Shown here: positions 13,807 through 36,535 of the stretch, piece after piece
Layout: the number at the start of each line of letters is the position of its first letter
How positions within the stretch are numbered: position 1 is the stretch's first letter
Origin: Candidatus Bathyarchaeota archaeon
Lineage (GTDB): Archaea; Thermoproteota; Bathyarchaeia; Bathyarchaeales; Bathycorpusculaceae
Direction of reading: 5' to 3'
DNA: 64,000 nucleotides
Assembly (NCBI GenBank): GCA_029881805.1
Contig: JAOULW010000004.1
Coordinates: 1-64,000, forward strand
The notes under the pieces: model-generated
Seen by the model: only the letters and a program-made list of their open reading frames with translations
Databases searched by the model: none
Told to the model about the DNA's origin: nothing
Position numbers and translations under genes: made by a program

Positions 13807-13818
13807 AATTTCTCACTC

Positions 13819-18560: not shown

Positions 18561-18592
18561 TCGAAAAAACAATTGCCGTTGATGTGATAAAA

Positions 18593-19564
18593 ATGGCGGA
18601 AAGGAAATATGATTGGTATCCTGCAGAGGATCCAAAAGACTGGCGAATTGTCAAATATGATCCTAAATGGTACGATTATACTGCGTGCATTGCCATCAAC
18701 AATGCCGAGGAAATGAATTCGTATGTCTTGGGCACTCTGAAAGAAATATGTGCTGCTTACGAGCGTGCGATGGGAGATGATGCTGTTCAGTTCATAGTAA
18801 TGACCGGTGCAGGCGACAAGGCCTTCTGCACTGGGGGAAACGTGAACGAATATGCCGAGATATACAACAAGAGGCCTTGGAAGTTCTGGGAGTGGGGAGA
18901 GTATTATGGCAGAATCTTTGACCTAATAATGCACTGTGGAAAACCAGTTATTGCTCGAGTAAATGGTGCGGTAGCGGGAGGTGGCTGGGAGTTCGTTGCC
19001 TGTTGTGATCTTGCAATTGCAGCGGACCACTCAAGATTCATTTCCCCCGGTCCTAGAGTTGGCATGACCTCCATCGGAGGGCTTTCGCAATGGCTTCCTC
19101 TACATATGGGTTTGAAGAAATCTGCCGAAATGGTTCTTCTAAGTTCACAGATAAACGCGGAAGAGGCACTCAAGTACGGAGTAGTAAACACTGTAGTGCC
19201 TAAGGAAAAGTTAGACGAAAAGGTGAAAGAATACATTGATAGGATGAAAACTCTGTCCCCGTCGAGCCTATGGTATTATAAGGTTCAACATAACTGGTGG
19301 AAAGAACTGGTCTGGCGTCTTACATGGGAACATGGAAAAGCTTGGTTTTCTCTCAATATTGGGTCAATAGAGCCTAGTGAAGGTTTATGGGCTTTCAAGG
19401 AGAAGAGGAAGAGCGAAATGGAGAAAATTCGATCTTTCATCGCTCAAGGGGGAGATCCGAGGGTTCCTTACGGGCCATTTATGCGCAAGTGTAGCAAATG
19501 CGGTGCAGAATATCTTCCAGAAAAATCTAAGTATTGCCTAACATGCGGAGCGCAACTCGAGTAA
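18593..19564 (+). CDS. oah: 6-oxocyclohex-1-ene-1-carbonyl-CoA hydrolase with C-terminal zinc ribbon
   Basis: Crotonase-fold enzyme that hydrates and hydrolytically opens the oxo-cyclohexene ring to 3-hydroxypimelyl-CoA. 323 residues. DKAFCTGGNVNEYAEIYNKR is the distinctive family block, followed by RVNGAVAGGG and GPRVGMTSIGG. The known bacterial enzymes are about 375 residues; this one has a shorter middle region and an added C-terminal ribbon (CSKCGAEYLPEKSKYCLTCG, four Cys), which I do not recall in bacterial Oah/BamA. ATG 18593 was chosen over GTG 18584 because of a better ribosome site. It converges on dch. Confidence 0.8.
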   Translation: MAERKYDWYPAEDPKDWRIVKYDPKWYDYTACIAINNAEEMNSYVLGTLKEICAAYERAMGDDAVQFIVMTGAGDKAFCTGGNVNEYAEIYNKRPWKFWEWGEYYGRIFDLIMHCGKPVIARVNGAVAGGGWEFVACCDLAIAADHSRFISPGPRVGMTSIGGLSQWLPLHMGLKKSAEMVLLSSQINAEEALKYGVVNTVVPKEKLDEKVKEYIDRMKTLSPSSLWYYKVQHNWWKELVWRLTWEHGKAWFSLNIGSIEPSEGLWAFKEKRKSEMEKIRSFIAQGGDPRVPYGPFMRKCSKCGAEYLPEKSKYCLTCGAQLE

Positions 19565-20586: not shown

Positions 20587-21726
20587 TTGCTCGAAGAAGT
20601 ATTTGAAACCTTTAGGAAATGGATAGACAATAGACACGAATATGCTCGAGCTTGGAAAGAAAGAACCCAGAACAAAGTTGTAGGTTATTTTTGTACATAT
20701 GTGCCGGAAGAAATATTATATGCAGCAAATATTTTGCCGGTTAGAATTCTGGGCAGCCATGAACCCCCTACAGTTACTGAACCATACATCTTTGCCATGT
20801 ATTGTCACCTTTGCAGAGATTGCTTAGCTCAAGGACTCAAAGGAAAATTCAATTATGTCAACGGAATCGTAGAGGGACAATCATGTCTCCATTTGAGGCA
20901 AGCCTTCAACGCTTGGAGACTCCACATTCCCACAGACTTCGCACATTACATTTACATCCCTCATGGAGTTCAGAATCCCCATGCAATTCAATATCTTACT
21001 CAAGAATTTGCCAAGTTTAAAAAGGCCCTTGAAGACTGGACTGGAAAGAAAATCACCAATGAAGATCTGGACAGAGGAATAAGAATTATGAATAAAAACA
21101 GAGAGTTAATGCGAAGAGTCTACGAGTATAGAAAGTTGGATAATCCAAAAATCACTGGTTTAGAAGCTATGGAAATGGTTCTTTCAAGCCAAATGACGGA
21201 TAAAGAAGAGCACAGTAAGCTCTTAGAGAGGCTCTTGGAGGAGTTGCCAAATCGCAAGCTTAATCGTAATCCCGGGGTCAGACTCATGATTATTGGAAGC
21301 GAAGACGACGACCGAGTTTTTATGAAAAACGTAGAAGCCTTAGGTGCAACCTTCGTAATTGATGAACATTGCACTGGTTCAAGATACCTCTGGGATGATG
21401 TGGTTCCAGATGAAGATAGGCTGTTTGCTATTGCTTCTCGCTATGTCAAAAGGATTGCATGCCCCAGCAAGGACTGGGCAGAGTTTACAAGAGTCAATCA
21501 TGCTGTCAGGCTTGCGAAGGAATTTAAGGTTCAAGGGACTTTGGTAATTCAGAACAAATTCTGCGACCCACATGGAATAGAGATTCCGCCATTGAGGGAT
21601 GCTTTAGGCTCAATTGGAGTTCCAACATACCCGCTAGAGTTCGATGTTACGGTCCCATGGGGACAGTTCCGAACCAGAGTGGAGGCCTTTCTTGAAACGT
21701 TAACTGGACTGGAGGAACTCTTCTAA
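20587..21726 (+). CDS. bzdN: Benzoyl-CoA reductase, BcrC/BzdN-type subunit
   Basis: 379 residues, the length of Azoarcus BzdN. One of the two subunits that bind benzoyl-CoA and the catalytic [4Fe-4S] cluster for two-electron ring reduction to the 1,5-diene. The family block ILPVRILGSHEPP is followed by Cys 73/76/79 in YCHLCRDC, Cys 100, Cys 262 in HCTGSRY and Cys 326 in KFCDPHG; three of these should be cluster ligands. Start is TTG with GAGAGGA about eight bases upstream. First gene of a six-gene unit in the order N-O-P-Q-ferredoxin-oxidoreductase. The related 2-hydroxyacyl-CoA dehydratases share the fold, but the neighbours point to benzoyl-CoA. Confidence 0.87.
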   Translation: MLEEVFETFRKWIDNRHEYARAWKERTQNKVVGYFCTYVPEEILYAANILPVRILGSHEPPTVTEPYIFAMYCHLCRDCLAQGLKGKFNYVNGIVEGQSCLHLRQAFNAWRLHIPTDFAHYIYIPHGVQNPHAIQYLTQEFAKFKKALEDWTGKKITNEDLDRGIRIMNKNRELMRRVYEYRKLDNPKITGLEAMEMVLSSQMTDKEEHSKLLERLLEELPNRKLNRNPGVRLMIIGSEDDDRVFMKNVEALGATFVIDEHCTGSRYLWDDVVPDEDRLFAIASRYVKRIACPSKDWAEFTRVNHAVRLAKEFKVQGTLVIQNKFCDPHGIEIPPLRDALGSIGVPTYPLEFDVTVPWGQFRTRVEAFLETLTGLEELF

Positions 21727-21742: not shown

Positions 21743-23092
21743 ATGGCTCAAACTAAAGAATATCCAACCGAACCATTGAAAATTTGGAATGAAGCTAAAC
21801 AACTCAGAGGCAAATACTACGAGAATTACTTAAATGCCCATGAGCGAGGAGGACTGCGTTGGGCTGGAGGAGCTTGGGCCTTCAGCGCGATACCAGCCGG
21901 CTTAGGTGAAGATGTCCATTGTGTAACAGGAGAACCCTACGGAGCCACAATAGCATTCTTTAAGGACTTCACGGCCAAGTGCCACGACGCAGTTGAGGCA
22001 GCTGGTTTCCCCCGCACACTATGCGCTTATATGAGGAACTATTGGGGGTCCATCCTACTTGACAAATACATCCTTGCTGATGGAAGAGTAGTAGACGGCT
22101 ATCCAACTCCAGACTTCATATGGCAAGATCACATCTGTTGTAGTCACGGAAAATGGTATCAGATCGTGAAATGGCTTGAGGAGAAGCAGGGCAAAAAAGT
22201 GCCACTGTATTGTATCGATGTCTCAGTTGGTTATCCCGTGGACAGACCCCTTGAAGATTACAAGATAAACTACATTCTTCAGCAACTAAATGATGGAATT
22301 GAATGGCTAGAGAAAACTACTGGGAGAAAATATGATGATAAGCTGCTTTGCGAGGCTGTCTGGAACGAAGTGAGAGCAACAAGGCTCTGGGCTCAAATTT
22401 GCACCTTAAATCAAGCCGTTCCAGCGCCATTAGATGAAAAGACCATGTATTCACTGTATGTTATGGGAACGCTCATGAAGCATCGACCTGAATGTGTTGC
22501 GTTTTATGAGAAGCTGAAAGCTGAAGTGGAGGACAGGGTCAAGAGGGGTATAGCGGCGGTAGCCAATGAAAGATTCAGGGTGATTACCGACACTCAGCCT
22601 CCTTGGGGTTTTCTGAAGATTTTTAGGGAAATGGAAAAATATGGCGTCGTCTCACTTGGTTCCCTCTACACTTATGGACTGATTGGAATGTGGGAGTACC
22701 GTCCAGATGGAACGTGGGTTCCAAGAGAGCTCCCGTCAAAGAGACCCCAGACAAGAGAAGAAGCCCTTAAAACGATTGTTGAATGGACTGTTAACAGGCC
22801 TGAGTGGGCGCATTTCTATTTGCCTGAAGCGAAGACAAAGATGATGCTGGACATTGTGAAGCAGTGGAAGGTTGACGCAGTTTTGCTTCACTACAATAGG
22901 GGCTGCGAAGGCTTAAGCGTTCACATAGCTGAAAACCGTCTAGGCTTACTGGAGGCTGGCGTGCCAGTTTTCCCCTTTGAAGGGAACATGGGCGACGAGA
23001 GGGAGTTTGATCTTCCTGGAACGTTAGCACGTTTAACCACCTTCTTCGCAAGCATGGGATTGAAAAAAAATGCGAGACTAGGAGGAAATTAA
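21743..23092 (+). CDS. bzdO: Benzoyl-CoA reductase, BcrB/BzdO-type subunit
   Basis: 449 residues, matching BzdO in length. Second active-site subunit, forming the heterodimer with BzdN. Conserved Cys positions include 60 and 80, Cys 94 in TLCAYMRNYWG, 132-133 in DHICCSHGKWYQ and 388 in NRGCEG; the ending PFEGNMGDEREFD is typical of BcrB. Starts 16 bases after bzdN with a strong GGAGGTG site. Length and motifs favour benzoyl-CoA reductase over hydroxyacyl-CoA dehydratase subunits. Confidence 0.88.
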   Translation: MAQTKEYPTEPLKIWNEAKQLRGKYYENYLNAHERGGLRWAGGAWAFSAIPAGLGEDVHCVTGEPYGATIAFFKDFTAKCHDAVEAAGFPRTLCAYMRNYWGSILLDKYILADGRVVDGYPTPDFIWQDHICCSHGKWYQIVKWLEEKQGKKVPLYCIDVSVGYPVDRPLEDYKINYILQQLNDGIEWLEKTTGRKYDDKLLCEAVWNEVRATRLWAQICTLNQAVPAPLDEKTMYSLYVMGTLMKHRPECVAFYEKLKAEVEDRVKRGIAAVANERFRVITDTQPPWGFLKIFREMEKYGVVSLGSLYTYGLIGMWEYRPDGTWVPRELPSKRPQTREEALKTIVEWTVNRPEWAHFYLPEAKTKMMLDIVKQWKVDAVLLHYNRGCEGLSVHIAENRLGLLEAGVPVFPFEGNMGDEREFDLPGTLARLTTFFASMGLKKNARLGGN

Positions 23093-23096
23093 GAAA

Positions 23097-23894
23097 ATGA
23101 TAACAGCCGGAGTAGACGTCGGAGCCAAATACGTGAAAATAGTGATACTTGAAGATGGAAAAAACGTCCTTGCAAGAGCCAATGGTATTGTTGAATTTGA
23201 TGTCTGGAAATCGGCAAACGACGTGTTCGAAAAAGCCTTGCTTAACGTTGGATTGAAACGCGAGCAAGTTGGTCAAGTTGTAGCTACAGGGATGGGCAGA
23301 AAAATTGTCCATATGAAACCTCCAATAGACGCTAAGGAAATTGTTCCAGAAGTCATCGCCGATGCTAAAGGAACCTACTATCTGATTCCAACCGTGAAGA
23401 CAGTCATTGATGTCGGAGCTGAAGAAGGTAGAGGAATAAAGGTGAGTGAAAACGGGGGAGTCAGAGACTTTGTTATCAATGAAAGATGTGCCGCTGGAGC
23501 TGGAACTTTCATAGAGACTATGGCCAGGGCGTTGGAAGTGGGTGTGGAAAACATGGGTCCCCTTGCGCTAAAATCTATGAATGCCATACCAATGAACGCC
23601 CAATGCTGCGTTTTCGCCGAATCAGAAGTCGTAAGCCTCATCCACTCAAAGGTTTCCAAAGAGGACATAGCAAAGGCAATACATGACGCCATCGCAGGCA
23701 GAATAGCCTCAATGGTTCTGAGAATAGGCGTAGAAAAAGACGTAGCCCTAATTGGAGGAGTAGCCCGAAACCCAGGATTCTTGCCACCTCTAAAGAAAGA
23801 ATTGAACACTGAAATACTGATTCCCGAATACCCAGAATGTGTTGGCGCCCTTGGAGCAGCTTTGTTTGCGTCTGAAATGGAGGGACAAAAATGA
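23097..23894 (+). CDS. bzdP: Benzoyl-CoA reductase ATPase subunit, BcrD/BzdP-type
   Basis: 265-residue ASKHA ATPase that couples ATP hydrolysis to injection of low-potential electrons into the catalytic subunits. Phosphate-1 motif GVDVGAKYVK at the N-terminus, phosphate-2 VIDVGAE, adenosine motif LIGGVARNPG; Cys 131 (INERCAAGAGTF) and Cys 170/171 can hold the [4Fe-4S] cluster shared at the ATPase interface. The stop overlaps the next start as ATGA, so the two ATPase subunits are coupled. P versus Q naming follows operon order and sizes, not a tree. Confidence 0.87.
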   Translation: MITAGVDVGAKYVKIVILEDGKNVLARANGIVEFDVWKSANDVFEKALLNVGLKREQVGQVVATGMGRKIVHMKPPIDAKEIVPEVIADAKGTYYLIPTVKTVIDVGAEEGRGIKVSENGGVRDFVINERCAAGAGTFIETMARALEVGVENMGPLALKSMNAIPMNAQCCVFAESEVVSLIHSKVSKEDIAKAIHDAIAGRIASMVLRIGVEKDVALIGGVARNPGFLPPLKKELNTEILIPEYPECVGALGAALFASEMEGQK

Positions 23895-24772
23895 GCGAGA
23901 GATCTAGTGAATTTTGGAGATGGCGAGAATATAGGCATACACAACCTAACATGGATTGGAATCAAGCCAAAATAGTCACAGCTGGCATTGATATAGGATC
24001 TGTAGGCAGCAAGGCCGCTATCATACTTGATGGACAACTCTACGCTTACTCGGTCATGAGAACTGGCGGCGTAAGCGAAGAAACAGCATTTAAAGTAATG
24101 AATTGGGCTCTCGAAGGAACAGGACTAAAGACTGAAAACCTTCATCAAGTTGTTGGCACAGGCTATGGCAGAGTGAACATTCCCTTTGCTAACAAAACAA
24201 TAACGGAAATCGCGTGTCATGCAAGAGGCGCCCACTATATTTACGGGCCATCTGTTCGGACCGTGCTCGACATTGGGGGACAAGACTGTAAGGCTATAAG
24301 ATGCGACAATAAGGGAAAAGTCATGTCCTTCCTTATGAACGATAAGTGCGCTGCAGGAACTGGAAGAGGACTAGAAGTTTTCTCTGACCTAATCAGGATT
24401 CCAATCGAAGAGGTTGGAAAAGTTTCGTTGAACGTCACAGAAGAACCGCCACCAGTAAGCAACACTTGCGTCATTTTTGCAAAGGCTGAGTCTGTAGCTT
24501 TACTCCGACAAGGGTGGCCGAAAGAAAAGGTCGCCGCAGCATATCACCTCGCAATGGTTGACCGAATAATTGACCTGCTTACAAAAGTGGGAATCGAAAA
24601 AGACTTCGTAATCACAGGAGGAGTCGCAAAAAACATCGGCATAGCCACTAGACTCGAAACAAACTTGGGAATCAAACCTCTTGAGCCAGAACTTGACCCA
24701 ATTCTAGCAGGAGCAATAGGAGCTGCGTTGTTCGCAAATGCGCTCTACGAGAAGCAGCTAGGACTGCGTTAA
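23891..24772 (+). CDS. bzdQ: Benzoyl-CoA reductase ATPase subunit, BcrA/BzdQ-type
   Basis: 293-residue partner ASKHA ATPase. GIDIGSVGSKAAII (about residues 32-45), VLDIGGQDCKAI (about 125-136) and ITGGVAKN form the nucleotide site; Cys 153 (NDKCAAGTGRG) and Cys 193 (NTCVIFA) are the bridging-cluster ligands. Bacterial BcrA of Thauera is about 437 residues, so the short form here matches the Azoarcus type. About 20 N-terminal residues precede the fold. Confidence 0.87.
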   Translation: MSERSSEFWRWREYRHTQPNMDWNQAKIVTAGIDIGSVGSKAAIILDGQLYAYSVMRTGGVSEETAFKVMNWALEGTGLKTENLHQVVGTGYGRVNIPFANKTITEIACHARGAHYIYGPSVRTVLDIGGQDCKAIRCDNKGKVMSFLMNDKCAAGTGRGLEVFSDLIRIPIEEVGKVSLNVTEEPPPVSNTCVIFAKAESVALLRQGWPKEKVAAAYHLAMVDRIIDLLTKVGIEKDFVITGGVAKNIGIATRLETNLGIKPLEPELDPILAGAIGAALFANALYEKQLGLR

Positions 24773-25085: not shown

Positions 25086-27611
25086 ATACCGAAAATTGTC
25101 AAACTCTTCATCAACGACGTTGAAGTTGACGTTGAGGAAGGCGCAAGCATCCTTGAAGCAGCCAGAAAAATAGAGGTTTATATCCCAACCATTTGTTATC
25201 ATCCTGACTTAATTCATCCCAACAAAGCTAAGTCTATCAAAGCCATTTATCGTGGTAATGAAAAAATCGCAGATGACTCTCCAGAGAGAGAATTCGAAGG
25301 ATGCAAACTGTGTCTGGTCCAAGTTGATGGACAAGAAACGCTTGTCCTTTCATGTTGCACATCGGTTTCCGATGGAATGAAAGTCTATACTGAAAACGAG
25401 CAGGTTCGAGGGGCGCGGAAAGTTGAACTGATGCGAATTCTAGCCAAGCACTCGCATGCATGCCTAATCTGCGCTCAGAAAGAAGGGTGCACAAGAGAGC
25501 CCTGTTCAACAAATGTTCCTGTAAATGAGCGGTGTTGCCCAAAATTTGGTGACTGTGAACTGGAAAGAGTTGCAGAATACATTGGAATAAGAGAAGATAC
25601 GCCACGCTACACTCCAAGAAACCTTCTTGTAATAGACAATGAACCTCTTTTCTTGCGTGACAATAACCTATGCATTGGATGCACCCGATGTGTCAGAGCA
25701 TGTCAAGAGCTTCGCGGCATCGGAGCCTTAGGCTTTGTTTATAAGAATGGAGAGGTTCTTGTCGGAACGGTTGCGCCGAACCTCATGGATTCCGATTGCA
25801 GATTCTGTGGAGCTTGTGTGGAAGTCTGCCCGACTGGAGCTTTACAAGATAAAGAATTAAAGGCTACAAAACGCGAAGTTGATCTGATTCCCTGCAAATA
25901 CGCCTGCCCAGCGGAGACTGATGTTCCAAGATACGTTCGACTGACCTGTGAAGGAAGGTTTGCTGAGGCTGCAGCAGTCATAAGAGAAAAGTTGCCATTA
26001 CCAAATGTTCTAGCCCACGCTTGTTCTCGTCCATGCGAGAGCACTTGCAGACGATCAAAGATCAATGAGGCTGTTTCAATTTGCGGCCTAAAACGTTTTG
26101 CAATGGACAATGATTCAGAAATATGGAAACAAAAACTAACGATTGCAAGACCGTCAGGAAAGAAGGTTGCCATAATAGGGTCTGGTCCCGCAGGACTGAG
26201 TGCAGCATTCTCTCTGGTCAGACTAGGACATTCAGTCACAATTTTCGAGGGCATGGATGAACCGGGCGGAATGATGCGGTATGGAGTTCAAGAGTATCGC
26301 CTGCCAAAAGAGGTCGTTGAAAAGGACATCCGTGAAATTGTCAATTTGGGTGTAGGAATCAAGACAGGCGTGGTTTTTGGGAAAGATTTGACAATTGAAT
26401 CTCTTAAGAAGGAAGGTTTCGACGCTGTTCTTGTGGCTGTTGGCTTGCAGACTAGTAGGAGGCTCAGAGTCGAAGGCGCCAACTTGTCAGGCGCGACCAG
26501 TGGGCTGGACTTTCTGAGGGATGCGCGACTTGGAAAAGCATCAAACATACAAGGGAAAGTCTTGGTCATTGGTGGCGGCAATGTTGCAATGGATGTTGCC
26601 CTAGCAGCCTTAAGACTTGACGCCAGCGATGTTCAAGTTGTCTGCTTGGAAAAACGCGAGGAAATGCCTGCCTTTCCATGGGAAATTGAGCAGGCACTTG
26701 AGGAAAGGGTGAGGATTCACAATTCTTATGGAGTAAAGAAGATTCTAGGCCGGGACGGAAAGGTGACTGCGGTTGAGCTCATGCGTTGTCTCTCGGTCTT
26801 CGATAAAGATGGAAAATTTAGCCCAACCTTTGATGAAAAACAAACAATGACCATTGAAACCGATATGCTTGCTATCGCAATAGGGCAAGCCCCAGACCTT
26901 TCATGGCAAACAGCAAACCAGTTAAGTATATCTGAATCTGGAGTGGTCAAGGTGAATCCATCTACGATGGAAACTAACATTTCAGGAGTCTTTGCATGTG
27001 GAGACATTGCAAAGGGTCCAACCTCAATCGTTGAAGCTTTAGTTTCAGGTAGACAAGCTGCCCTCACCATCGATAAGTATCTTGGGGGGCGAGGAACCAT
27101 TGAGGATCGGGTTGTGGAAGTTGAGAAACCGAATCCGTGGTTTGGGAAAGTGGAGAAGTTCGCCCACAAACAACGGGTTCAAATGCCTTCCCTTTCAGTT
27201 GAGAAGCGAAGAGGCAACTTCCTTGAAGTTGAACTTGGTTACGACGAGAAAATGGCTCTAGAAGAGGCGAATCGGTGTCTAAGATGCGACTTAAGACTGT
27301 GCATTCAAAAGGCGCCTCAACCTCCAGAAAAATGGCTGCCTCTCAAAGAGGAGAACTTGGAGACTGTTCCGGAAACTGAGGGCGTTTTCCAGCTCTTAAA
27401 TGGAAACAAGGAAATTATCTACATAAAAGGAACAATTAACCTCAGAAAGGAACTTGAGCAACTGCTAGCAACGAACATGAAGGCAAAATACTTCATCTGT
27501 GAGGAAGCCAAAATGTACACAATGAGAGAGAGTGAGCTACTTCAACAATACATAAAAAAGCATGGAAAGATGCCTGAGCAAAACGTAGAAATCGAAGAAG
27601 ACCTATATTAG
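25086..27611 (+). CDS. bzdV: NuoG/GltD-type NAD(P)H:ferredoxin oxidoreductase (BzdV-like), non-canonical ATA start
   Basis: 841 residues. Order of domains: [2Fe-2S] ferredoxin (Cys 37, 73, 76, 90, with a long insert in the first gap), NuoG-like H-x3-C-x2-C-x5-C cluster, two 4Fe ferredoxin sets (CIGCTRCVRACQ; CRFCGACVEVCP), then a GltD-like half with its own Cys cluster, FAD motif GSGPAGLSAAFSL and NAD(P) motif GGGNVAMDVA. The first ATG (25377) would remove the whole [2Fe-2S] domain. Between the upstream stop (25059) and that ATG there is no ATG, GTG or TTG in frame. The best start is ATA 25086 (reading M-PKIVKLF) behind TAGGGA. It probably regenerates reduced ferredoxin for the reductase, perhaps by bifurcation. 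Confidence 0.82.
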   Translation: MPKIVKLFINDVEVDVEEGASILEAARKIEVYIPTICYHPDLIHPNKAKSIKAIYRGNEKIADDSPEREFEGCKLCLVQVDGQETLVLSCCTSVSDGMKVYTENEQVRGARKVELMRILAKHSHACLICAQKEGCTREPCSTNVPVNERCCPKFGDCELERVAEYIGIREDTPRYTPRNLLVIDNEPLFLRDNNLCIGCTRCVRACQELRGIGALGFVYKNGEVLVGTVAPNLMDSDCRFCGACVEVCPTGALQDKELKATKREVDLIPCKYACPAETDVPRYVRLTCEGRFAEAAAVIREKLPLPNVLAHACSRPCESTCRRSKINEAVSICGLKRFAMDNDSEIWKQKLTIARPSGKKVAIIGSGPAGLSAAFSLVRLGHSVTIFEGMDEPGGMMRYGVQEYRLPKEVVEKDIREIVNLGVGIKTGVVFGKDLTIESLKKEGFDAVLVAVGLQTSRRLRVEGANLSGATSGLDFLRDARLGKASNIQGKVLVIGGGNVAMDVALAALRLDASDVQVVCLEKREEMPAFPWEIEQALEERVRIHNSYGVKKILGRDGKVTAVELMRCLSVFDKDGKFSPTFDEKQTMTIETDMLAIAIGQAPDLSWQTANQLSISESGVVKVNPSTMETNISGVFACGDIAKGPTSIVEALVSGRQAALTIDKYLGGRGTIEDRVVEVEKPNPWFGKVEKFAHKQRVQMPSLSVEKRRGNFLEVELGYDEKMALEEANRCLRCDLRLCIQKAPQPPEKWLPLKEENLETVPETEGVFQLLNGNKEIIYIKGTINLRKELEQLLATNMKAKYFICEEAKMYTMRESELLQQYIKKHGKMPEQNVEIEEDLY

Positions 27612-27651: not shown

Positions 27652-27948
27652 ATGTCTTGGTTAGAAATGAACAAGAAATGTCGAAAGAGTAAAAGCGAAA
27701 ATACGAATCTTGAAAAGCAGGGTTGGAAAAAACGGTTTGCAGCCGACGAACCCGACCTACGTGAGGCAGTAGAACTCTATAAGTCACTTGGATATGAAGT
27801 CAAATTCGAGCCAGTTGTTTTCGATGAGAAAAGCGGAGAATGCAAAAAATGCTTATTGCATCAAAATTTTGATAGATACAAAACTATTTACATACGACCC
27901 AAAAAGAAAAGAGGGCGCCATTATTCTTTGACTTTACAGAATCTGTAG
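27652..27948 (+). CDS. Small CxxC protein of unknown function downstream of the reductase operon
   Basis: 98 residues, not recognised. Basic N-terminus, then GWKKRFAADEPDLREAVEL, SLGYEVKFEPV and a CKKC pair followed by YKTIYIRP. The C-terminal 9 codons overlap the convergent DUF35 gene. It may be the last gene of the reductase transcript (40-base gap). One CxxC pair is not enough for a full zinc site unless it dimerises. Confidence 0.5.
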   Translation: MSWLEMNKKCRKSKSENTNLEKQGWKKRFAADEPDLREAVELYKSLGYEVKFEPVVFDEKSGECKKCLLHQNFDRYKTIYIRPKKKRGRHYSLTLQNL

Positions 27949-28385
27949 AAGATCCTATCGTCCTCTAGCTCAATTATTTTTAGCGTGACTTTGTCTCCAA
28001 TTTTGAGGTCTTCGTATTTTGCGCCGTCGATTCTTGCCGAAATCAGTAAGCCTCCGATTTTTACTAGGCCTATGCAGAACGGTACATCTTCCACGAAGCC
28101 CAAAGGTGCGCCGAGCTTCATCTCAGTAAAAGCATACAATTCGCCGTCTACACCCAAATTTATCCATTCGAGGTTTTCAGAGAAACATTCAGGGCACATG
28201 ATTCTTGGAGGCCACAAAACTTTCCCGCAAGCCTTGCACTTGGTTGTTGTCAACTTCCTCTCTTTGAGGTTCTGAAAGAACCTGTCAATTCTTGTGAATT
28301 TGGCGTCTTGCAAAGGATAGAAATCCAGCATGTAGGGAAGCTTAATCATGTTTTGGCGTTTTATTTTTTCAAATTCCACTGTCAT
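27921..28385 (-). CDS. DUF35 OB-fold / zinc-ribbon partner of thiolase
   Basis: 154 residues: zinc ribbon C-x2-C-x11-C-x2-C (about residues 50-67) followed by an OB-fold ending near the C-terminus. Its start overlaps the thiolase stop by four bases (ATGA), so it is coupled to that enzyme. Compared with the DUF35 protein at 10164, this copy keeps all four Cys. Confidence 0.83.
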   Translation of the reverse strand: MTVEFEKIKRQNMIKLPYMLDFYPLQDAKFTRIDRFFQNLKERKLTTTKCKACGKVLWPPRIMCPECFSENLEWINLGVDGELYAFTEMKLGAPLGFVEDVPFCIGLVKIGGLLISARIDGAKYEDLKIGDKVTLKIIELEDDRIFYRFCKVKE

Positions 28386-29554
28386 TTTAAATCCCTCGAA
28401 TAGGCGATAATGCTATGAACATTTGCAGCTCCGCTAAGGTTGTGTGCCACTGCGACTTCAGCGCCCTTAACGTGTCTTCCCTGCGGCACCTCTCCTCTGA
28501 ACTGTTGGAAGATATCCAGTGCTTGCAGTATTCCTGTAGCACCTAGAGGATGCCCACAGCCGAGCAGTCCGCCTCTTGGGTTTACGGCAACCTTTCCCCC
28601 AATGTGTGGCTCACCGTTCTCAATGAATTTTCCACCGCTTCCTTTTTCGCACCATCCGAATGCTTCGTATTCCATGATTTCAGAAATCGTGAAGCAATCA
28701 TGCAGCTCTGCTATGTCAATCTCGTCTCTTGTTATGTTTGCCGTTCTTAGGGTTTCTTGAACAGCCATCTTTAGCGGAACCCACTCGGTTATGTTGGCTA
28801 GGTTATTGATGACATTTCCAACACTTGCTTGTCCAGTTCCTACAATATACATTGGAGTGTCCGTGTATTTTTTGGCATCCTCAGCTGGAACTAGAATCAC
28901 TCCAGCAGCCCCGTCTGTTATCGAGCTACAATCAAAAAGGTTCAGGGGAGGAGATATTACAATGGATTTGAGAACGTCCTCTACCGTGACTTCTTTTTGG
29001 AAATGCGCCGCAGGATTCATGGTGGAGTAATGATGATTTTTGGCAGAAACCAAGGCCATTTGCTCTTTCGTCGTGCCAAATTCCAGCATGTGTCTTTGAG
29101 CAGTCATAGCGAAAAAAGGTGGAGCTGAAAGTCCATTTACCCCATCCCATTCTCTGTCAAGGACACAAGTCATGTTTGTCTGAGCTTCGGTCATGTCCGG
29201 CATGTACATTTTCTCGACGCCGAAGACAACAGCAATGTCAGCCATTCCAGATCCGACACAAGCCCAAGCATACCGGATAGCAGCTTGTCCAGAAGCGCAC
29301 ATCAACTCTGTTCTTGCCGCGACCTTTCTGGGGGTTATCCCCAAGCACTCTGCTACCATAGGGGTGACATGAGCTTGAAAAACGAATCGTTCAGGTTGGG
29401 CAGCTCCAACTATCAAAGAGTCGACATCCTTTGGAGAGATATTGCCCACGTTCTCAAACATGGCTTTCCCAGCTTCTTGTACTAGGTCCCTCCAGCTTGC
29501 CTCTCGTCTGCCACATTTTGAGGCTCCGCCTCCGACGATTGCAACCTTTTTCAT
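28382..29554 (-). CDS. Thiolase, SCP-x/archaeal type
   Basis: 390 residues. Nucleophilic Cys 86 in LMCASGQAAIRYA, His in GCGHPLGATG, C-terminal AHNLSGAANVH. Last enzyme of the minus-strand beta-oxidation operon (dehydrogenase, hydratase, thiolase, DUF35). Likely cleaves 3-oxopimelyl-CoA or acetoacetyl-CoA in the benzoate pathway; chain-length preference cannot be read from sequence. Confidence 0.85.
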   Translation of the reverse strand: MKKVAIVGGGASKCGRREASWRDLVQEAGKAMFENVGNISPKDVDSLIVGAAQPERFVFQAHVTPMVAECLGITPRKVAARTELMCASGQAAIRYAWACVGSGMADIAVVFGVEKMYMPDMTEAQTNMTCVLDREWDGVNGLSAPPFFAMTAQRHMLEFGTTKEQMALVSAKNHHYSTMNPAAHFQKEVTVEDVLKSIVISPPLNLFDCSSITDGAAGVILVPAEDAKKYTDTPMYIVGTGQASVGNVINNLANITEWVPLKMAVQETLRTANITRDEIDIAELHDCFTISEIMEYEAFGWCEKGSGGKFIENGEPHIGGKVAVNPRGGLLGCGHPLGATGILQALDIFQQFRGEVPQGRHVKGAEVAVAHNLSGAANVHSIIAYSRDLK

Positions 29555-29583: not shown

Positions 29584-30366
29584 CTATCTTCCTTTGTATT
29601 CGGGCTTTCTTTTTTCTAGGAACGCTGATACTCCTTCTTTAAAATCTTCTGTTGAAGCAAGTATTCCAAAAGCCTCACATTCGTGCATTAGCCCTATCCT
29701 CTGGTCTATTTCTGTGCTATTGTTAATGAGTTCTTTGACTAGTCTTAGGGCAATTGGAGGCTTGCTCATAATTTCTTTGGAAAGTTCCTCAATGGTTGAT
29801 TGAAGTTTTTCGGGTGGCACTACAATGTTGATCAATCCAATTTTCTCAGCAGTCTTGGCGTCAATCATCTTCCCTGTAAATATTAATTCCTTGGCTATTC
29901 CCTTTCCAACTAAACGTGGTAATCGTTGTGTTCCTCCCGAACCTGGAATCAGTCCAACGTTCACCTCTGGCTGGCCCACTCGTGCGTTTTCAGAAGCTAT
30001 TCTGATGTCGCATGCCATTGCGAGTTCCAAGCCTCCGCCAAGGGCGTAGCCATTGATGGCTGCAATCACGGGTTTTCCAAGTTCCTCAATTGTCAGAGTC
30101 AGCTTTTGCAAGCGTTTTGTAGTCTCCCAAGCTTTTATGGCGCTAATGTCCTTAACGGTTTTAAGGTCTAGACCGGCGCAAAAGGCTTTTTCGCCAGCTC
30201 CTGTAATTACTACGACTCTTATGTTGTCGTCCTTCTCTGCGTCTTGAAGTCTTGAGAGAAGTCCTAGAACAGTTTCTTCATCTAGCGCGTTTAGAGCTGC
30301 AGGGCGATTTATGGTTATGAGTGCTATTCCGTCTTTTTTCTCGTAAAGGGTGTTTTTTAATTCCAT
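29584..30366 (-). CDS. Enoyl-CoA hydratase (crotonase)
   Basis: 260 residues. Both catalytic Glu positions are present: GYALGGGLELAMACD and GQPEVNVGLIPGSGG. FCAGLDLKTV is the substrate loop. Converts crotonyl-CoA or a dicarboxylic enoyl-CoA to the 3-hydroxy compound. It follows the dehydrogenase by 21 bases and precedes the thiolase by 29 bases in one operon. Confidence 0.88.
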   Translation of the reverse strand: MELKNTLYEKKDGIALITINRPAALNALDEETVLGLLSRLQDAEKDDNIRVVVITGAGEKAFCAGLDLKTVKDISAIKAWETTKRLQKLTLTIEELGKPVIAAINGYALGGGLELAMACDIRIASENARVGQPEVNVGLIPGSGGTQRLPRLVGKGIAKELIFTGKMIDAKTAEKIGLINIVVPPEKLQSTIEELSKEIMSKPPIALRLVKELINNSTEIDQRIGLMHECEAFGILASTEDFKEGVSAFLEKRKPEYKGR

Positions 30367-30387: not shown

Positions 30388-31251
30388 CTATTTTTTGGTC
30401 CAGTCATAGAAGCCTTTACCAGTCTTTCTTCCCCAGAGACCAGCTCGAACCATTTGTCTTAGCAACGGACATGGCCTATATTTTGGATCAAGGTCGTTTT
30501 GCAAAACTTCAGCTATAGAAAGAGTCGTGTCCAATCCAAGGTAGTCAAGAAGAGTTATCGGTCCCATGGGCCAATTCAGTCCAAGCTTTATAGCCTTGTC
30601 AATGTCCTCTGGCTCAGCTATTCCCTCCCAAACAAGGGAAACAGCCTCGTTTAGAGCCGGGACCAAAATTCTATTCACGATAAAGCCCGCGCAATCCTTT
30701 TTGACTATTACTGATTCTTTTTGCATCTTATTCGCGACTTCAACTATCGTGCTTATGGTTTCATCCGAGGTTTTCGCTCCACGGATAATCTCTATCAGTT
30801 TCATTAGTTGTGGTGGGTTAAAGAAATGTACTCCACAGAATTTCTCGGGTCGGGTTGTAGCTGAGGCAAGCTCTGTTATGCTTATGGAAGAGGTGTTTGA
30901 AGCCAAAACGGCATCTGGCTTTGCTAGCTTATCAACTTCCGAAAGTATCTCTTTTTTTAACTTCAGATTCTCTGGGACGGCCTCAATTATCAAGTCTGCG
31001 TCGGCAACGGTCTCTCTTAGGTCCAGGGTTGGATGAATCCTCGCTAAGGTTTCCTTGACTTCATTCTCTGTGATTGTTCCTTTTTTCAGGAATATTTGCA
31101 AACTGTTGTTTATCATAGACATTCCTTTGTCAAGAAATTCTTGTTTGATGTCTCTGAGGTAAACGTCGTATTTCGCTACTTGAGCCGCGACTTGGGCTAT
31201 ACCATGACCCATTAATCCGGCTCCAAGGACAGCGACTTTTCGAATTTCCAT
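30388..31251 (-). CDS. 3-hydroxyacyl-CoA dehydrogenase (3-hydroxybutyryl-CoA type)
   Basis: 287 residues: NAD motif [14 protein letters not shown], catalytic block [13 protein letters not shown] with GVHFFNPP (His of the His-Glu dyad) and a C-terminal helical domain with [11 protein letters not shown]. Could oxidise 3-hydroxypimelyl-CoA and 3-hydroxybutyryl-CoA. First gene of the operon running down to 27921; an AT-rich promoter lies between it and the divergent acyl-CoA ligase. Confidence 0.9.
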
Positions 31252-31365: not shown

Positions 31366-32931
31366 ATGGCTTGGTTGAATTTAGGAGAAATTTTGAGCAC
31401 ACACGCTAGAAAATATCCAACAAAACTGGCTGTTAAAGATTGGCGTGGCAGATCGCATACGTATTCGGAACTAGACATTAGGACTAACAAACTAGCTAAC
31501 GGCCTGTTGAATATGGGCTTGCGTAAGGGCGACCGCGTTGCTGTCCTCCTTTACAACTCGGTGGAATTCATCGAAGTCTATTGCGCCTCAGCAAAGGCAG
31601 GACTGGTTGTTGCACCTGTCAGTTGGCGTTATATCGAAAAGGAGATTGAATACGTTGTAAATAATTCAGATGCCAAAGCCATGATTGTTCATGAGGAATT
31701 CGCAGACACAATAAACACTATCCGACCAAAACTAGAAAAAATCCTTAAGGATAGATTCATTGTTGTCGGTAATTCATCACCTAAAGGCTACATTAAATAT
31801 GAGGATTTGATCAAGAAATCTCCAGATAATAAGCCAAATGTCAAGGTAGGCGACAAAGACACGTGGGTCCAGATATACACTTCAGGTATAACTGGCCTTC
31901 CAAAAGGTGTTGTTCGCTCTCACGAGTCTTACGTCGCTTTCTTCTTAATTAACTCTGTAGAATTCGGCTTCTCAGAGAAGGATTACGGAATGATTGTCAT
32001 GCCCCTCTTCCATGTAAACTCAACTTTTTACGGGCTTCTATTCCTTTATACAGGTGCCTCTCTGTTTGTTGGCAGAGACAAGCGTTTTGATCCCGTCGAT
32101 TTGTTGGACATCTTCGACAGGGAGAAAATAACCTTCACTTCACTTATTCCAACTCACTACAGCCTCATTCTTGAAATACCAGAAAAGACCCGCCGGAAGT
32201 TTGATACAACTTCACTGCGCAAGCTATTGTGCTCATCGGCGCCCGTTAGAAGCAGAATAAAGCGTGGAATCTTGAAATGTTTTCCCGGGGTCGAACTGTA
32301 TGAGGCATACGGCTCCACAGAAGCTGGGCTAGTCACCATACTCAAGCCTGAAGACCAGCTTAGAAAAATCGGTTCAATGGGTAGAGAATGCATGGGAGCA
32401 GACATGATTAAGCTTCTTGATAATAACGGTCATGAAGTTGGAATCGGAAAAATCGGTGAACTCTATTCCAAGGGTCCAATGATGTTTGACGAATATTACA
32501 AGATGCCTGAAAAGACTGAAGCCTCATTTAGAGGCGAGTTTTTCAGCGCCGGAGACCTCGTTAAGCGTGATGAAGAGGGCTATTATTACATTGTAGACCG
32601 CAAGGACAACATGATCATCACTGGAGGTGAGCACGTCTATCCTTCAGAGCTTGAAGAAATACTCTCCCGGCATTCAAAAGTGCGGGATGTTGCAGTTATA
32701 GGGCTTCCAGATGATAAATGGGGTGAAATTGTCACCGCCGTGATCGCCCTAAAGGATCGTGAAACAATATCTGAAAAAGAAATCATTGAATGGTGTAGGG
32801 ATAAGATGACGGGGTATAAGAAACCCAAAAGAGTGATGTTCATTAACTATTCTGATATTCCTAGGACCGCAACAGGTAAAATTCTGCACAGGGAGCTTAG
32901 AGAGCGCTTCGCCGAGTTTCTCCAATCTTGA
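31366..32931 (+). CDS. Acyl-CoA / possible benzoate-CoA ligase
   Basis: 521-residue adenylate-forming ligase: P-loop YTSGITGLPKG (about 177-187), EAYGSTEAG, GDLVKRDEEGYYYIVDRKD and the C-terminal PRTATGKILHREL with the catalytic Lys. The length suits benzoate-CoA ligase, and the location between the beta-oxidation operon and the second BcrC/B pair makes an aromatic or alicyclic acid plausible, but substrate pocket residues cannot be interpreted by eye. GGGTGAG precedes the ATG. Its last 35 bases overlap the convergent BcrB-like gene. Confidence 0.82.
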   Translation: MAWLNLGEILSTHARKYPTKLAVKDWRGRSHTYSELDIRTNKLANGLLNMGLRKGDRVAVLLYNSVEFIEVYCASAKAGLVVAPVSWRYIEKEIEYVVNNSDAKAMIVHEEFADTINTIRPKLEKILKDRFIVVGNSSPKGYIKYEDLIKKSPDNKPNVKVGDKDTWVQIYTSGITGLPKGVVRSHESYVAFFLINSVEFGFSEKDYGMIVMPLFHVNSTFYGLLFLYTGASLFVGRDKRFDPVDLLDIFDREKITFTSLIPTHYSLILEIPEKTRRKFDTTSLRKLLCSSAPVRSRIKRGILKCFPGVELYEAYGSTEAGLVTILKPEDQLRKIGSMGRECMGADMIKLLDNNGHEVGIGKIGELYSKGPMMFDEYYKMPEKTEASFRGEFFSAGDLVKRDEEGYYYIVDRKDNMIITGGEHVYPSELEEILSRHSKVRDVAVIGLPDDKWGEIVTAVIALKDRETISEKEIIEWCRDKMTGYKKPKRVMFINYSDIPRTATGKILHRELRERFAEFLQS

Positions 32932-34147
32932 ACAGGCTATTCAAGGTTCTCAAGTAAGTCTCAAGTTTTGTTTTCACTTTGAATTCATCGTAGTTTCTCC
33001 AGTCCGTTGAGTCTACGTCTAATATTAGGCTCGAAACATCCGTCATCTCTTGAATTTTTTCCTTCACCATCGTTTCGCCTATTGTCATCATCCTGCAACC
33101 CCAGTTTGTTGGCAGTATAACACCATTTGCCCGAAAATCCTTCACCAAAGCTGCGATCAATTCTATCCTCCTTTCTATCGTGCAATTCGCCATATTTGAC
33201 AAGTGTTTTCGAGCTAGGCTTTCATAAGGTTTCGAAGGGTTTAAGCCTCCAGCCCAAACATGTGAAAAAGTTTCTGCAACAACAACTGCTTTCAAGGTTT
33301 CTAAATACTGAAAGAATTGAAGGTCAAACCATAACGGAAGGTTGTCCCAAACTAGGCGATACTTCTCGTCTTCAATGATTCCGACACCCTGTTTGACCCT
33401 CTGTTCAAGCTCCGCACACAATTCCTCATAAAAACCTACCGCTTGCTCTGTTCCTGGAACGCACAGCATGAAATAGACTGCGGAAAAGGCTTCTCTCGCT
33501 CCCATAGGAGTCGGAACACTTTTCCTATATTCCTGAACCTTAAGCCAAAGCTCGCTCGTCTTGTTTGAAAGCGTCAAAGTCTTCCTGAGTTTGCTATCAA
33601 CAAGTTTCATTTTAGAATACTTTTCTAGACGAGAAACCAGATCCTCAAGCTGACAAACATAATGTTGAACGTAACGATCTTCCAATTGCTCGGGACTTGC
33701 GCTGTCGACATTATAAGGGACGTCCAAAAGAAAGAGTGGTTTTTTAAAGATTCGACTGGCGACTTGAAACCATTTCATGTGCGTGTCACATGCACATGTC
33801 GAAGCGACCAAGATGTCCGGTTTTGGAATTCCTCCTTCAGGCAAATTTTCTCCATCAAAAAGGGAGCCGAGCACACACCTCGCATAGGAGCATAAATCCT
33901 TTGAAAAGCCCTTTCTTTCAGCCGATTCACATAAAGGCACTGAAACCTTTCTGGTGGCACATAGTGAAGCGTAGTTCTCAGGCCATACTGGAATTATATC
34001 CATTGCGTGAAGAATTTCCACTGGAAAGGTGGAAGCGACCCATGCTACAAGTTTGCCTTCCTCTCTTGCCTTATGAGCCATTTCATAGGAAGGCTTAACA
34101 TAGTTCTGATAGAACCCTTTGAGCGTTGCAAGCCGTCTCTCACTCAT
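32897..34147 (-). CDS. BcrB/HgdB-like 2-hydroxyacyl-CoA dehydratase family subunit
   Basis: 416 residues of the benzoyl-CoA reductase / 2-hydroxyacyl-CoA dehydratase D-component fold. FPVEILHAMDIIPVWPENYA is the family opening; Cys 86 and 91, a CAC pair near 118-120 and a C-terminal NWGCRM Cys are candidate cluster ligands. Start overlaps the stop of the BcrC-like gene as TAATG. No ASKHA activator gene is adjacent, so it must borrow BzdP/Q or another activator, or be a different enzyme. Confidence 0.75.
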   Translation of the reverse strand: MSERRLATLKGFYQNYVKPSYEMAHKAREEGKLVAWVASTFPVEILHAMDIIPVWPENYASLCATRKVSVPLCESAERKGFSKDLCSYARCVLGSLFDGENLPEGGIPKPDILVASTCACDTHMKWFQVASRIFKKPLFLLDVPYNVDSASPEQLEDRYVQHYVCQLEDLVSRLEKYSKMKLVDSKLRKTLTLSNKTSELWLKVQEYRKSVPTPMGAREAFSAVYFMLCVPGTEQAVGFYEELCAELEQRVKQGVGIIEDEKYRLVWDNLPLWFDLQFFQYLETLKAVVVAETFSHVWAGGLNPSKPYESLARKHLSNMANCTIERRIELIAALVKDFRANGVILPTNWGCRMMTIGETMVKEKIQEMTDVSSLILDVDSTDWRNYDEFKVKTKLETYLRTLNSLFKIGETRRSAL

Positions 34148-35268
34148 TATATTTGTTCCTCCAACATCTCAATAAAAGCTTCAATCCTTGTTCTGAGCTG
34201 TGCAGTTCCGCTTAAGGAGTGGTCCCACTCAAGGCACAAGACTGGTAAACCATCCTCCTCTCTGAGTTCCTCAGCCAATAAAGGAGCATCAAAAGAATGG
34301 ACATCGCAAAACTTCAGAGAAAAGATGAGGACGCCTTCCACATCAAAAAGCTTAGCCATCTCCCTTGTATGTCTAAACCTTTCCTCGGAAGAATACATGA
34401 AAGAGCTTGGAATCTTGTGCAAATATCGTTCTGTAATGGCCGTCATAGGTTCCTCCTCCTCATTGACCAAGTCCCAAAAGTACCGCGAACCTGTGCAAAG
34501 GTCATCCGCAACAACGGAGCCACCAACGCTCTCGATGAGCCTCAAAAGTTCCGAGTTATCCATGATACTGCCTGAAACAAGCAGTCTAACACCTTCTTTG
34601 GGTACGTCTTCCCGTGTGTCAATTTCCTCCAGCAATACTTGCAGGAGCTTGTTATGTTCTTCCTTCGGAGTCATCATACTTGACAAGACAATTTCAAGGG
34701 CTTCGCTCCCGAGCACTAGTGGAGGATTGCCTTTTCTCAGGTCATAAACCTGTCTTAGTAGCCTTCTGTTTTCGTTAAATGTTCTGATGGTACTCCTCAG
34801 ATTTTCCTCGGAAATTTCAACTTTGAAGCTCTTCATTAGCCATTCTCTAAACTTCTCGAGTTCATCACGAAAGAATCTTCGCGAGTTTTCATTAGTGCTG
34901 TGGGGTGTGTTTATGAAATATGCTTTGGGAATTGTTGTGTAACGTCTCCAAAGGTCGTAAATCTTTTTTTGATTGTCGCAAGAGTGTGAAAAAACATATC
35001 CGTCTAAACTGCTATATTCTCCTTTGAGCGCGTTGTTGAAGCAGCTTTTAGCGAAAGAGCAAACATTTGTGGATACGTGAACGTCAGCTAATTTTGGAGG
35101 TTCAAGGCTTCCAAGAATTCGAATTGGAAGTATTTCGCCGGCAGAAATGATCTCTTCAGGCGTGTAGGAGCAAGTGTATCCTAGAACTGGCCTTTTTAGG
35201 CGTTTCCATTCGCTGATGAATTTGTTGTTAGCGGAGATTAAAGTTCTAATCAGTTTCAATGACTCCAT
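34147..35268 (-). CDS. BcrC-like subunit, second paralogue
   Basis: 373 residues, close in length and layout to the bzdN product: opening PEEIISAGEILPIRILGS, Cys 70 and 76, SCDNQ at 97, LCTGSRY and KFCDVHS. The conserved Cys positions are retained, so it should be functional. It is the upstream gene of a two-gene unit with the BcrB-like gene, in the same order as bzdN-bzdO. Substrate may be another aromatic or a 2-hydroxyacyl-CoA. Confidence 0.77.
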   Translation of the reverse strand: MESLKLIRTLISANNKFISEWKRLKRPVLGYTCSYTPEEIISAGEILPIRILGSLEPPKLADVHVSTNVCSFAKSCFNNALKGEYSSLDGYVFSHSCDNQKKIYDLWRRYTTIPKAYFINTPHSTNENSRRFFRDELEKFREWLMKSFKVEISEENLRSTIRTFNENRRLLRQVYDLRKGNPPLVLGSEALEIVLSSMMTPKEEHNKLLQVLLEEIDTREDVPKEGVRLLVSGSIMDNSELLRLIESVGGSVVADDLCTGSRYFWDLVNEEEEPMTAITERYLHKIPSSFMYSSEERFRHTREMAKLFDVEGVLIFSLKFCDVHSFDAPLLAEELREEDGLPVLCLEWDHSLSGTAQLRTRIEAFIEMLEEQI

Positions 35269-35408: not shown

Positions 35409-36356
35409 CTACCTTTTCAGATAGCTACTCTCCAAACCCTTCAAGAGATTAGTCAGAGCATAATTAACAGGTGTCTTGATTCCGTATCGTTTTCCATAAG
35501 CCACTATGGCGCCGCTTAAGAAATCTACTTCAGTCATCGCCTTGTTCTCAACGTCAACCAACATAGAAGGCTTATGGGCCCCACCCTTCGCTAGATAGTT
35601 GACAAATGTATTGAGTGCATTTTCGCCGAAGTCATGACCATCCGCTTTGGCTACTGCGAGTCCCTCCTCTAACACTCTTGTTGCCAAGCCGCCCGTAAAC
35701 TCAAAATCCATCGCTTCTTTCATTGTTTGTCGTGTCAAAGCGCAGATGGAACATAGAGCAGAGTTCAAGATTGCCTTCTCCCATATGTGCTTCTTAATAT
35801 TGGGAGCCTCATCTGTTTTCAATCCGCAAGTTGTGAGTATGTCCGAAATCCGCTTAGTCGTCTCATCGGTTGTGTACAGACCATTCTTGAAAGCGCCAAT
35901 GTAATTGGGAGGTTGAAACCAATTCATCCTTACGTCTCCGGGGTTTGCCAGGTTTCCAGCGTAGTTGACGATCACTCGATAGGCAGTGTCAATTTTCAAA
36001 GTCTCAGCAATCAGGCGCTCGTTATCTATTCCGTTTTGAAAGCTGACAATCTTCATCTTCGGTGTATACATGGGTTTAATCTCAGCCAAGACATTCTTCA
36101 GAAAACAAGCCTTTGTAGTGATAAAAATAATGTCTGGCTCAAACTTGGTCAGTTCAGTCAACGAACCTACAACTTTGTCAAATTTGAATGACAGTTCCCT
36201 GATCCCAGAAACCTTCATACCCTCTTTACTGATTTGTATGAGCAGTTCTTTGGCTATGTCCTCCAAAATCACGTCCATGCCGCTTTTACCTAAATGAGTG
36301 GCTAAAATCGATCCAACAGGACCCAAGCCGATGACTCCGATTGTCGGTTTATCCAT
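35409..36356 (-). CDS. Ketopantoate reductase family protein (PanE/ApbA-like)
   Basis: 315 residues with the NAD(P) motif GVIGLGPVGSILA at the N-terminus, FQNGIDNE and a C-terminal helical domain with the conserved catalytic Lys region (KKHIWEKAILNS). Reduces 2-oxo acids, classically ketopantoate in CoA biosynthesis. ATG 36356 is chosen (GAGGTG five bases upstream) over an upstream GTG. The context of acyl-CoA genes allows either CoA synthesis or 2-oxoacid reduction feeding the adjacent dehydratase-like pair. Confidence 0.8.
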   Translation of the reverse strand: MDKPTIGVIGLGPVGSILATHLGKSGMDVILEDIAKELLIQISKEGMKVSGIRELSFKFDKVVGSLTELTKFEPDIIFITTKACFLKNVLAEIKPMYTPKMKIVSFQNGIDNERLIAETLKIDTAYRVIVNYAGNLANPGDVRMNWFQPPNYIGAFKNGLYTTDETTKRISDILTTCGLKTDEAPNIKKHIWEKAILNSALCSICALTRQTMKEAMDFEFTGGLATRVLEEGLAVAKADGHDFGENALNTFVNYLAKGGAHKPSMLVDVENKAMTEVDFLSGAIVAYGKRYGIKTPVNYALTNLLKGLESSYLKR

Positions 36357-36535
36357 GGTCACACCTCAATTTTACAGGTTGTATCTGTATTGTGCTGAAT
36401 ACCATTTAAAAAGATATTTGAGTCAAACCGTCTGTTTGCGTCGTAAAACAGAGTGAGTCGCGCTAGGAACTGTGATTTGAAAGAGTCACTTCCGCACTGT
36501 TAACAGCAGAGATCATCAAATTACATAGTATCAGA

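Follow-up and report, generated by a model that had tools for sequence, protein, structure and literature searches.

(R)-2-Hydroxyisocaproyl-coenzyme A (CoA) dehydratase, HadBC (PDB 3O3M), is a heterodimer served by its own homodimeric activator, HadI. In the Fld system, a 2-hydroxyacid dehydrogenase and CoA activation are found nearby, as they are at the locus described here. The Fld dehydratase, FldBC, acts on phenyllactyl-CoA in Clostridium sporogenes (Dickert et al. 2002, as cited in PMC13416013). In the class I benzoyl-CoA reductase BzdNO (8S02), which is activated by BzdPQ, six cysteines of BzdN (36, 73, 100, 263, 293 and 327) hold a [8Fe-9S] double-cubane cluster. The cluster of BzdO sits on Cys95, Cys128 and Cys380; Glu65 and His131 adjoin the water bound to it, and the oxygen of the benzoyl thioester is held by Gln274, Tyr298 and Tyr97 (PMC11971306). 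According to the same paper, DCCP (6ENO) is a homodimer, and the double cubane was abolished in HadB-type dehydratases. Finally, for the benzene degrader BzS1 a hypothetical route from phenylpyruvate through cinnamoyl-CoA to benzoyl-CoA has been proposed on a proteogenomic basis, its dehydratase lacking an assignment (PMC13416013). Here we describe a pair of overlapping genes, labelled N2 and O2, found in the first 64,000 nucleotides (the window) of contig JAOULW010000004.1 of a Candidatus Bathyarchaeota archaeon (GCA_029881805.1; genome G000, 2.2 Mb, listed completeness 100%, contamination 2.63%). Judged by its sequences, the pair is rather likely to be a heterodimeric 2-hydroxyacyl-CoA dehydratase-type enzyme that uses BzdPQ, the activator of the neighboring benzoyl-CoA reductase. 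That estimate does not extend to an aromatic substrate, phenyllactyl-CoA, which is a reasonable guess.

N2 (34147..35268, minus strand, 373 aa) and O2 (32897..34147, minus strand, 416 aa) are intact, full-length open reading frames (ORFs). The stop codon of N2 and the start codon of O2 share one base (TAATG), and the order, N followed by O, is that of bzdN-bzdO. Both proteins score far above the gathering cut-off of the HGD-D family PF06050 (332 bits for N2 and 249 bits for O2 against 28.4). The description of the pair in the first-pass annotation, two overlapping genes with the fold and order of bzdN-bzdO, thus agrees with the coordinates, family scores and one-base overlap. The whole genome encodes only four PF06050 proteins, forming two pairs. 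The other pair is part of a full bzdNOPQ set about 8 kb from O2 and consists of a genuine benzoyl-CoA reductase subunit, bzdN (20587..21726, plus strand; TIGR03190, 438 bits, slightly below the cut-off of 453.8), and its catalytic partner bzdO (21743..23092, plus strand; TIGR03191, 564 bits, above the cut-off of 448.6).

O2, the catalytic-type subunit, resembles HadB, the alpha subunit of 2-hydroxyacyl-CoA dehydratase. Among NCBIfam models it scores 217 bits with HadB, 157 with BcrB and 130 with BzdO; phmmer also prefers HadB, which is the top match among PDB sequences as well. In a maximum-likelihood tree, the references of which include no named FldBC, LcdAB, HgdAB or Bcr sequences, BzdO is separated by a long branch (support 100/100) and O2 falls on the HadB side, within a clade of 20 archaeal proteins (support 100/99). 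The AlphaFold2 model of O2 (predicted local distance difference test score, pLDDT, 90.5), which like that of N2 contains no cofactors, has HadB 3O3M chain A as its best Foldseek match in PDB. Against 3O3M chains A and C the target-normalised template modelling (TM) score is 0.92–0.93 with E of 1e-27, compared with 0.84 and 1e-24 for BzdO. The pair falls below the cut-offs of the HadBC-type equivalog models NF052455 (217 against 750 bits) and NF052456 (177 against 700 bits); since both describe isocaproyl enzymes in particular, only the isocaproyl equivalog is thereby excluded. The pair also remains well below the cut-offs for benzoyl-CoA reductase (TIGR03191, 130 against 448.6 bits; TIGR03190, 222 against 453.8 bits).

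In the active site of O2, the three cysteines of the [4Fe-4S] cluster are present (C86, C120 and C351) and invariant across the clade, and the equivalents of HadB Ser37 (the Ser of AWVAS) and Glu55 (E57) are retained. Of the residues that hold the thioester oxygen in BzdO, Tyr97 is kept, whereas Gln274 is replaced by Leu and Tyr298 by Phe. The Ser44 equivalent is also kept, as read from a pairwise alignment since MAFFT misaligned that region, and the BzdO insertion at about residues 302–355 is absent. The replacement of Gln274 and Tyr298 speaks for a dehydratase; the equivalents of Glu65 and His131 (E57 and H123) are retained as in BzdO. The HadB residue at the position of His131 is given as Ala in PMC11971306, whereas the HadB sequence in PDB aligns a Val there.

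In contrast to O2, the electron-relay-type subunit N2 has its closest likenesses in BzdN and DCCP; profile, sequence and fold all set it further from HadC. Its AlphaFold2 model (pLDDT 92.7) matches best BzdN in 8S02, chain B. It scores 238 bits with the DCCP model NF040772, under the cut-off of 350, and unlike the homodimeric DCCP it is encoded in a heteromeric gene pair. The first-pass label "BcrC-BcrB-like" therefore suits N2 but not O2: in this pair the catalytic subunit is HadB-like and its partner BzdN-like.

The cysteines of N2 also differ from those of BzdN. The proximal-cluster cysteines C70, C97 and C321 are kept together with C33 and C258, making five of the six in BzdN, but Cys293 of BzdN corresponds to Ser288. 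The annotated "same conserved Cys" thus holds for all three cysteines of O2 and is inexact for N2. By comparison, the bzdN of the window has all six intact, as do BzdN proteins from three clade genomes, and between the same genomes N2 is less conserved than BzdN. Among 19 clade N2 sequences, positions 73, 100 and 327 are Cys in every one. The full set of six cysteines is found in four sequences (the G169/G170 type has it), five cysteines in ten and four in five, and every replacement at position 36, 263 or 293 is Ser. HadC lacks the cysteines at positions 36 and 263, both of which are retained in the window's N2; the losses in N2 sequences would thus fall on ligands of the distal sub-cluster. 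The nearest relatives of the window's N2 (L049 and L050) have Cys at position 293, so that its loss here is recent. Because Ser can also bind iron, N2 may hold an altered double cubane.

Another type of HGD-D pair was seen in Bathyarchaeia (L065, L067, L088 and L110), with complete N sequences containing all six double-cubane cysteines. At L067, L088 and L110 the pair is followed downstream by an HgdC-type activator of its own; at L065, L067 and L088 an enoyl-CoA hydratase lies upstream. This type may be a HadB-like enzyme that keeps the double cubane.

How is N2O2 energized? No ASKHA activator adjoins the pair, as annotated, and this absence extends to the entire genome: a PF01869 search of G000 found only bzdP (23097..23894, plus strand, 163 bits) and bzdQ (23891..24772, plus strand, 176 bits), which fall within the BzdP and BzdQ clades of the ASKHA tree, and no distant or dedicated activator of the HgdC/HadI type. 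The distant activator considered in the first-pass annotation is thereby excluded. Of two features of HadBC-type dehydratases, grouping of the alpha subunit with HadB is seen for O2, and a dedicated homodimeric activator is not. In 16 of the 21 clade-bearing genomes of Bathyarchaeia, each PF01869 protein above the cut-off either adjoins BzdO or, in G052, is itself a verified bzdQ. What looks like a lone activator in G052 is part of a bzdQ (75% identical), cut off where the contig ends; this genome is thus no exception. G170 and G190 have one extra activator each, directly adjoining a different HGD-D pair. Of the 19 clade loci, some of which are short, and the three actinobacterial ones, not one has an activator ORF within 2.5 kb of its O gene; 13 of 21 other HadB-like loci do. 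In many Bathyarchaeia, BzdPQ-type activators are found beside single-subunit, double-cubane-like HGD-D proteins, indicating that this activator type has several partners. A probable borrowing of BzdPQ by N2O2 is the best explanation for this pattern.

Co-occurrence points in the same direction. Among 252 genomes of Bathyarchaeia, several of them incomplete metagenome-assembled genomes (MAGs), 17 have both the N2O2 clade and BzdO, four the clade alone, three BzdO alone and 228 neither (Fisher p 6e-20, uncorrected for kinship). Where the clade occurs without a BzdO match, three genomes (G170, G119 and G197) are 64–77% complete, and in the fourth, G052, bzdQ is cut by the contig edge. In G000, G041 and G049 a single island holds bzdNOPQ, a flavin-FeS oxidoreductase, chsH2, thiolase, enoyl-CoA hydratase (ECH), 3-hydroxyacyl-CoA dehydrogenase (HBD), ligase, O2, N2 and panE, with gene orientations shuffled between the three. 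Contig pieces of the island are present in G042 and G055, and records L054, L061 and L062 agree with its gene set. In G192, G191 and G105 the pair is far from bzd and still adjoins panE, and in the first two also the ligase. The module is kept across three families, with intact ORFs in most genomes. A search of a plasmid collection returned distant dehydratases only, and a partial literature search found no paper mentioning hydroxyacyl-CoA dehydratase together with Bathyarchaeia. Three records met in the plasmid search (NZ_OL790811, NZ_OL790812 and NZ_CP084075, from Proteus and Fusobacterium) are 2.1–4.1 Mb, chromosome-sized, and are probably mislabelled as plasmids.

A related gene set is present in three actinobacterial MAGs (L072–L074), where a two-component regulator pair (L074) or other genes come after bzdP-bzdQ, and then enoyl-CoA hydratase, panE, ligase, N2 and O2; panE and ligase overlap by 4 bases. 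Their P and Q proteins fall within the BzdP and BzdQ clades. In G253, bzdN and bzdO lie before bzdP, whereas a PF06050 search of G254 and G255 found no BzdN or BzdO. The actinobacterial O subunits form a branch apart from the archaeal clade, and a single clade is rejected (approximately unbiased test, p 0.009), although long branches call for caution here. The combination of bzdPQ, panE, ligase and N2O2 therefore seems to have been assembled at least twice. Taken with the co-occurrence and the lack of any other activator in most relatives, this separate lineage supports the sharing of BzdP/Q that had been suggested from the window. On another contig of G254 and G255 (L130 and L131), a divergent HGD-D pair adjoins another PanE-like gene, 26% identical; the association of PanE with such pairs may be a repeated pattern.

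Both annotated neighbors of the pair are real: an AMP-forming acyl-CoA ligase (31366..32931, plus strand; PF00501), convergent with O2 and overlapping it by 35 bp at the 3′-ends, and a PanE/ApbA-family, ketopantoate reductase-like gene (35409..36362, minus strand; TIGR00745, 176 bits), upstream of N2 on the same strand. The nearest PDB entry to this PanE is 3WFI (83 bits), which we take to be an Enterococcus D-mandelate dehydrogenase; the ketopantoate reductase (KPR) of E. coli (1KS9) is far, at 30 bits. The D-mandelate dehydrogenase family has been described (Wada et al. 2008, as cited in PMC12350541). A second PanE of the genome, with the KPR structures 5HWS and 5AYV as nearest PDB chains, is encoded on contig C10 between the genes for PanB (ketopantoate hydroxymethyltransferase) and PPS (phosphopantothenate synthetase). 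The window gene lies outside the CoA biosynthesis locus, the setting that would mark a ketopantoate reductase. With the C10 gene in that locus, the window's PanE would be free for another 2-oxo acid, and it is probably a D-2-hydroxyacid dehydrogenase. As to the ligase, its PDB matches are generic, but an orthologue adjoins N2O2 in 11 of the 17 clade loci examined, including G052, where no BzdNO and only the cut bzdQ was seen. That it is merely a benzoate-CoA ligase is less likely given this adjacency and its presence in the actinobacterial set without BzdNO. Beyond the ligase, profile matches identify further conserved neighbors, all on the minus strand: HBD (30388..31251), ECH (29584..30366) and thiolase (28382..29554), each a possible downstream step, and a ChsH2/DUF35-type OB-fold partner of thiolase (27921..28385).

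These genes suggest the following order of steps. The PanE-like enzyme would reduce a 2-oxo acid to the (R)-2-hydroxy acid, and the ligase would convert the latter to its CoA ester. N2O2 would eliminate water to give the 2-enoyl-CoA, a radical dehydration that needs a low-potential electron from an ATP-dependent activator, presumably BzdPQ. ECH, HBD and thiolase could then hydrate, oxidise and thiolyse the product. If the starting compound were phenylpyruvate, cinnamoyl-CoA would be shortened to benzoyl-CoA, which would enter the adjacent Bzd pathway. The chemical logic is that of the BzS1 proposal, made for a different organism; the accessible part of that source does not mention sharing of BzdPQ. 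The reaction would be of the FldBC type, but FldABC relies on a CoA transferase and a dedicated activator, whereas N2O2 has a ligase, a PanE-type reductase and no activator of its own.

A different role would be a second aryl-CoA reductase, powered by BzdPQ, for an aromatic CoA ester that carries a substituent or hydroxyl group. N2O2 shares with BzdNO the activator family, the island, the fold and gene order, the proximal-cluster cysteines and the equivalents of Glu65 and His131, and the His where HadB has Val leaves room for a reductase-like step. However, O2 stands apart from BzdO in the tree and prefers HadB by profile and fold, Gln274 and Tyr298 are lost, a PanE-type 2-oxoacid reductase would have no role in ring reduction, and the actinobacterial O subunit has Ile at position 131 within the same gene set. 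We therefore regard this role as unlikely and rejected a second benzoyl-CoA reductase as first choice; of the two activities proposed in the first-pass annotation, dehydration of a 2-hydroxyacyl-CoA is favored over reduction of a different aromatic. It is more doubtful still that the pair works without an ATP-dependent activator or with one outside PF01869, or that it is an inactive residual paralogue. The missing adjacent activator gene, the lower conservation of N2 and the loss of cluster ligands in most members could be read in this way, but no clade member deviates from the three cluster cysteines of O2 or from C70, C97 and C321 of N2, and three families share the module, with ORFs intact in most genomes.

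An aliphatic 2-hydroxyacyl-CoA dehydratase (acting for example on 2-hydroxyisocaproyl-CoA) would differ from the proposed enzyme in substrate only. It would serve a branch of amino-acid fermentation with the enoyl-CoA as electron sink, and the bzd link would reflect the shared activator rather than an aromatic substrate. HadB is indeed the nearest characterised relative among those compared, and G254 and G255 hold the module and bzdPQ without recognisable BzdNO. Activator supply alone must then explain the strong co-occurrence with BzdO and the frequent placement in the bzd island in Bathyarchaeia, and we consider this alternative possible though clearly the less probable. Several observations weigh against our proposal. 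Next to the pair of G192 is a 2-oxoacid dehydrogenase complex, and genes for acyl-CoA dehydrogenases turn up repeatedly near the module; both would fit a reductive amino-acid branch too. The 2-oxoacid dehydrogenase fits any 2-oxo acid and is thus no pointer to the substrate. No hint came from an SMC/ScpB block (two loci) or from tRNA synthetase, FBPase and DHDPS genes among the neighbors. Thiolase, ECH and HBD may instead belong to the lower benzoyl-CoA pathway, 3WFI is titled 2-dehydropantoate 2-reductase in its PDB file, and neither N2 nor O2 reaches any curated equivalog cut-off. Regarding activators, G110 carries a second activator tandem elsewhere, G119 and G197 each carry one untyped activator, and in G256, the genome of the basal archaeal member L063, bzdNOP adjoins a lone HgdC-type activator. 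G253 has further activators, and G254 and G255 carry a large two-domain PF01869 protein and the second, divergent HGD-D pair; the completeness of these two genomes is not reported.

Several other features of the region and of related genomes deserve mention. Adjoining bzdQ is a large FeS/flavin pyridine-nucleotide oxidoreductase (25377–27611), kept in the island of relatives and also beside bzdQ in G256, which is a candidate electron supplier for BzdPQ. The island further encodes an AOR-family enzyme with a polyferredoxin (13318–15708), the enzyme being nearer to aldehyde:ferredoxin oxidoreductases (1AOR and 8C0Z) than to the class II benzoyl-CoA reductase BamB (4Z3W). An Oah-like hydrolase (18584–19564) matches TIGR03200 far under the cut-off, and in its position G049 and G042 encode another Oah-like protein that is longer and 36% identical, which suggests gene replacement. 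A single double-cubane-like HGD-D protein of about 445 aa, accompanied by a BzdP-like/BzdQ-like tandem (BzdQ 60–67% identical) without BzdO, was found in L008–L023 and in G001, G003, G011, G012, G015, G017, G026, G028, G032, G036, G048, G054 and G057. For Bathyarchaeum tardum, "BcrACD without BcrB" was reported (PMC10477458); this may be such a trio of a single HGD-D protein and BzdP/Q-like subunits, not a partial benzoyl-CoA reductase.

More tentatively, the N subunit might be an evolutionary intermediate in which the double cubane is being dismantled towards the single cluster of HadC, within a phenyllactyl-CoA dehydratase that feeds the benzoyl-CoA pathway and shares the ATPase pump of the ring reductase. 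The clade offers a natural series of distal ligands, with six, five or four of six cysteines and always Ser in their place, in HadB-type dehydratases, so that the evolution of the [8Fe-9S] into a [4Fe-5S] cluster becomes testable on existing sequences. If N2O2 does use BzdPQ, one ATP-driven electron activator would serve two different radical enzymes in the same cell, and electron supply would couple ring reduction to a route of entry for aromatic compounds (or amino acids). N2O2 would then also be a genomic candidate for the kind of dehydratase that lacks an assignment in the phenylpyruvate-to-benzoyl-CoA proposal (PMC13416013).

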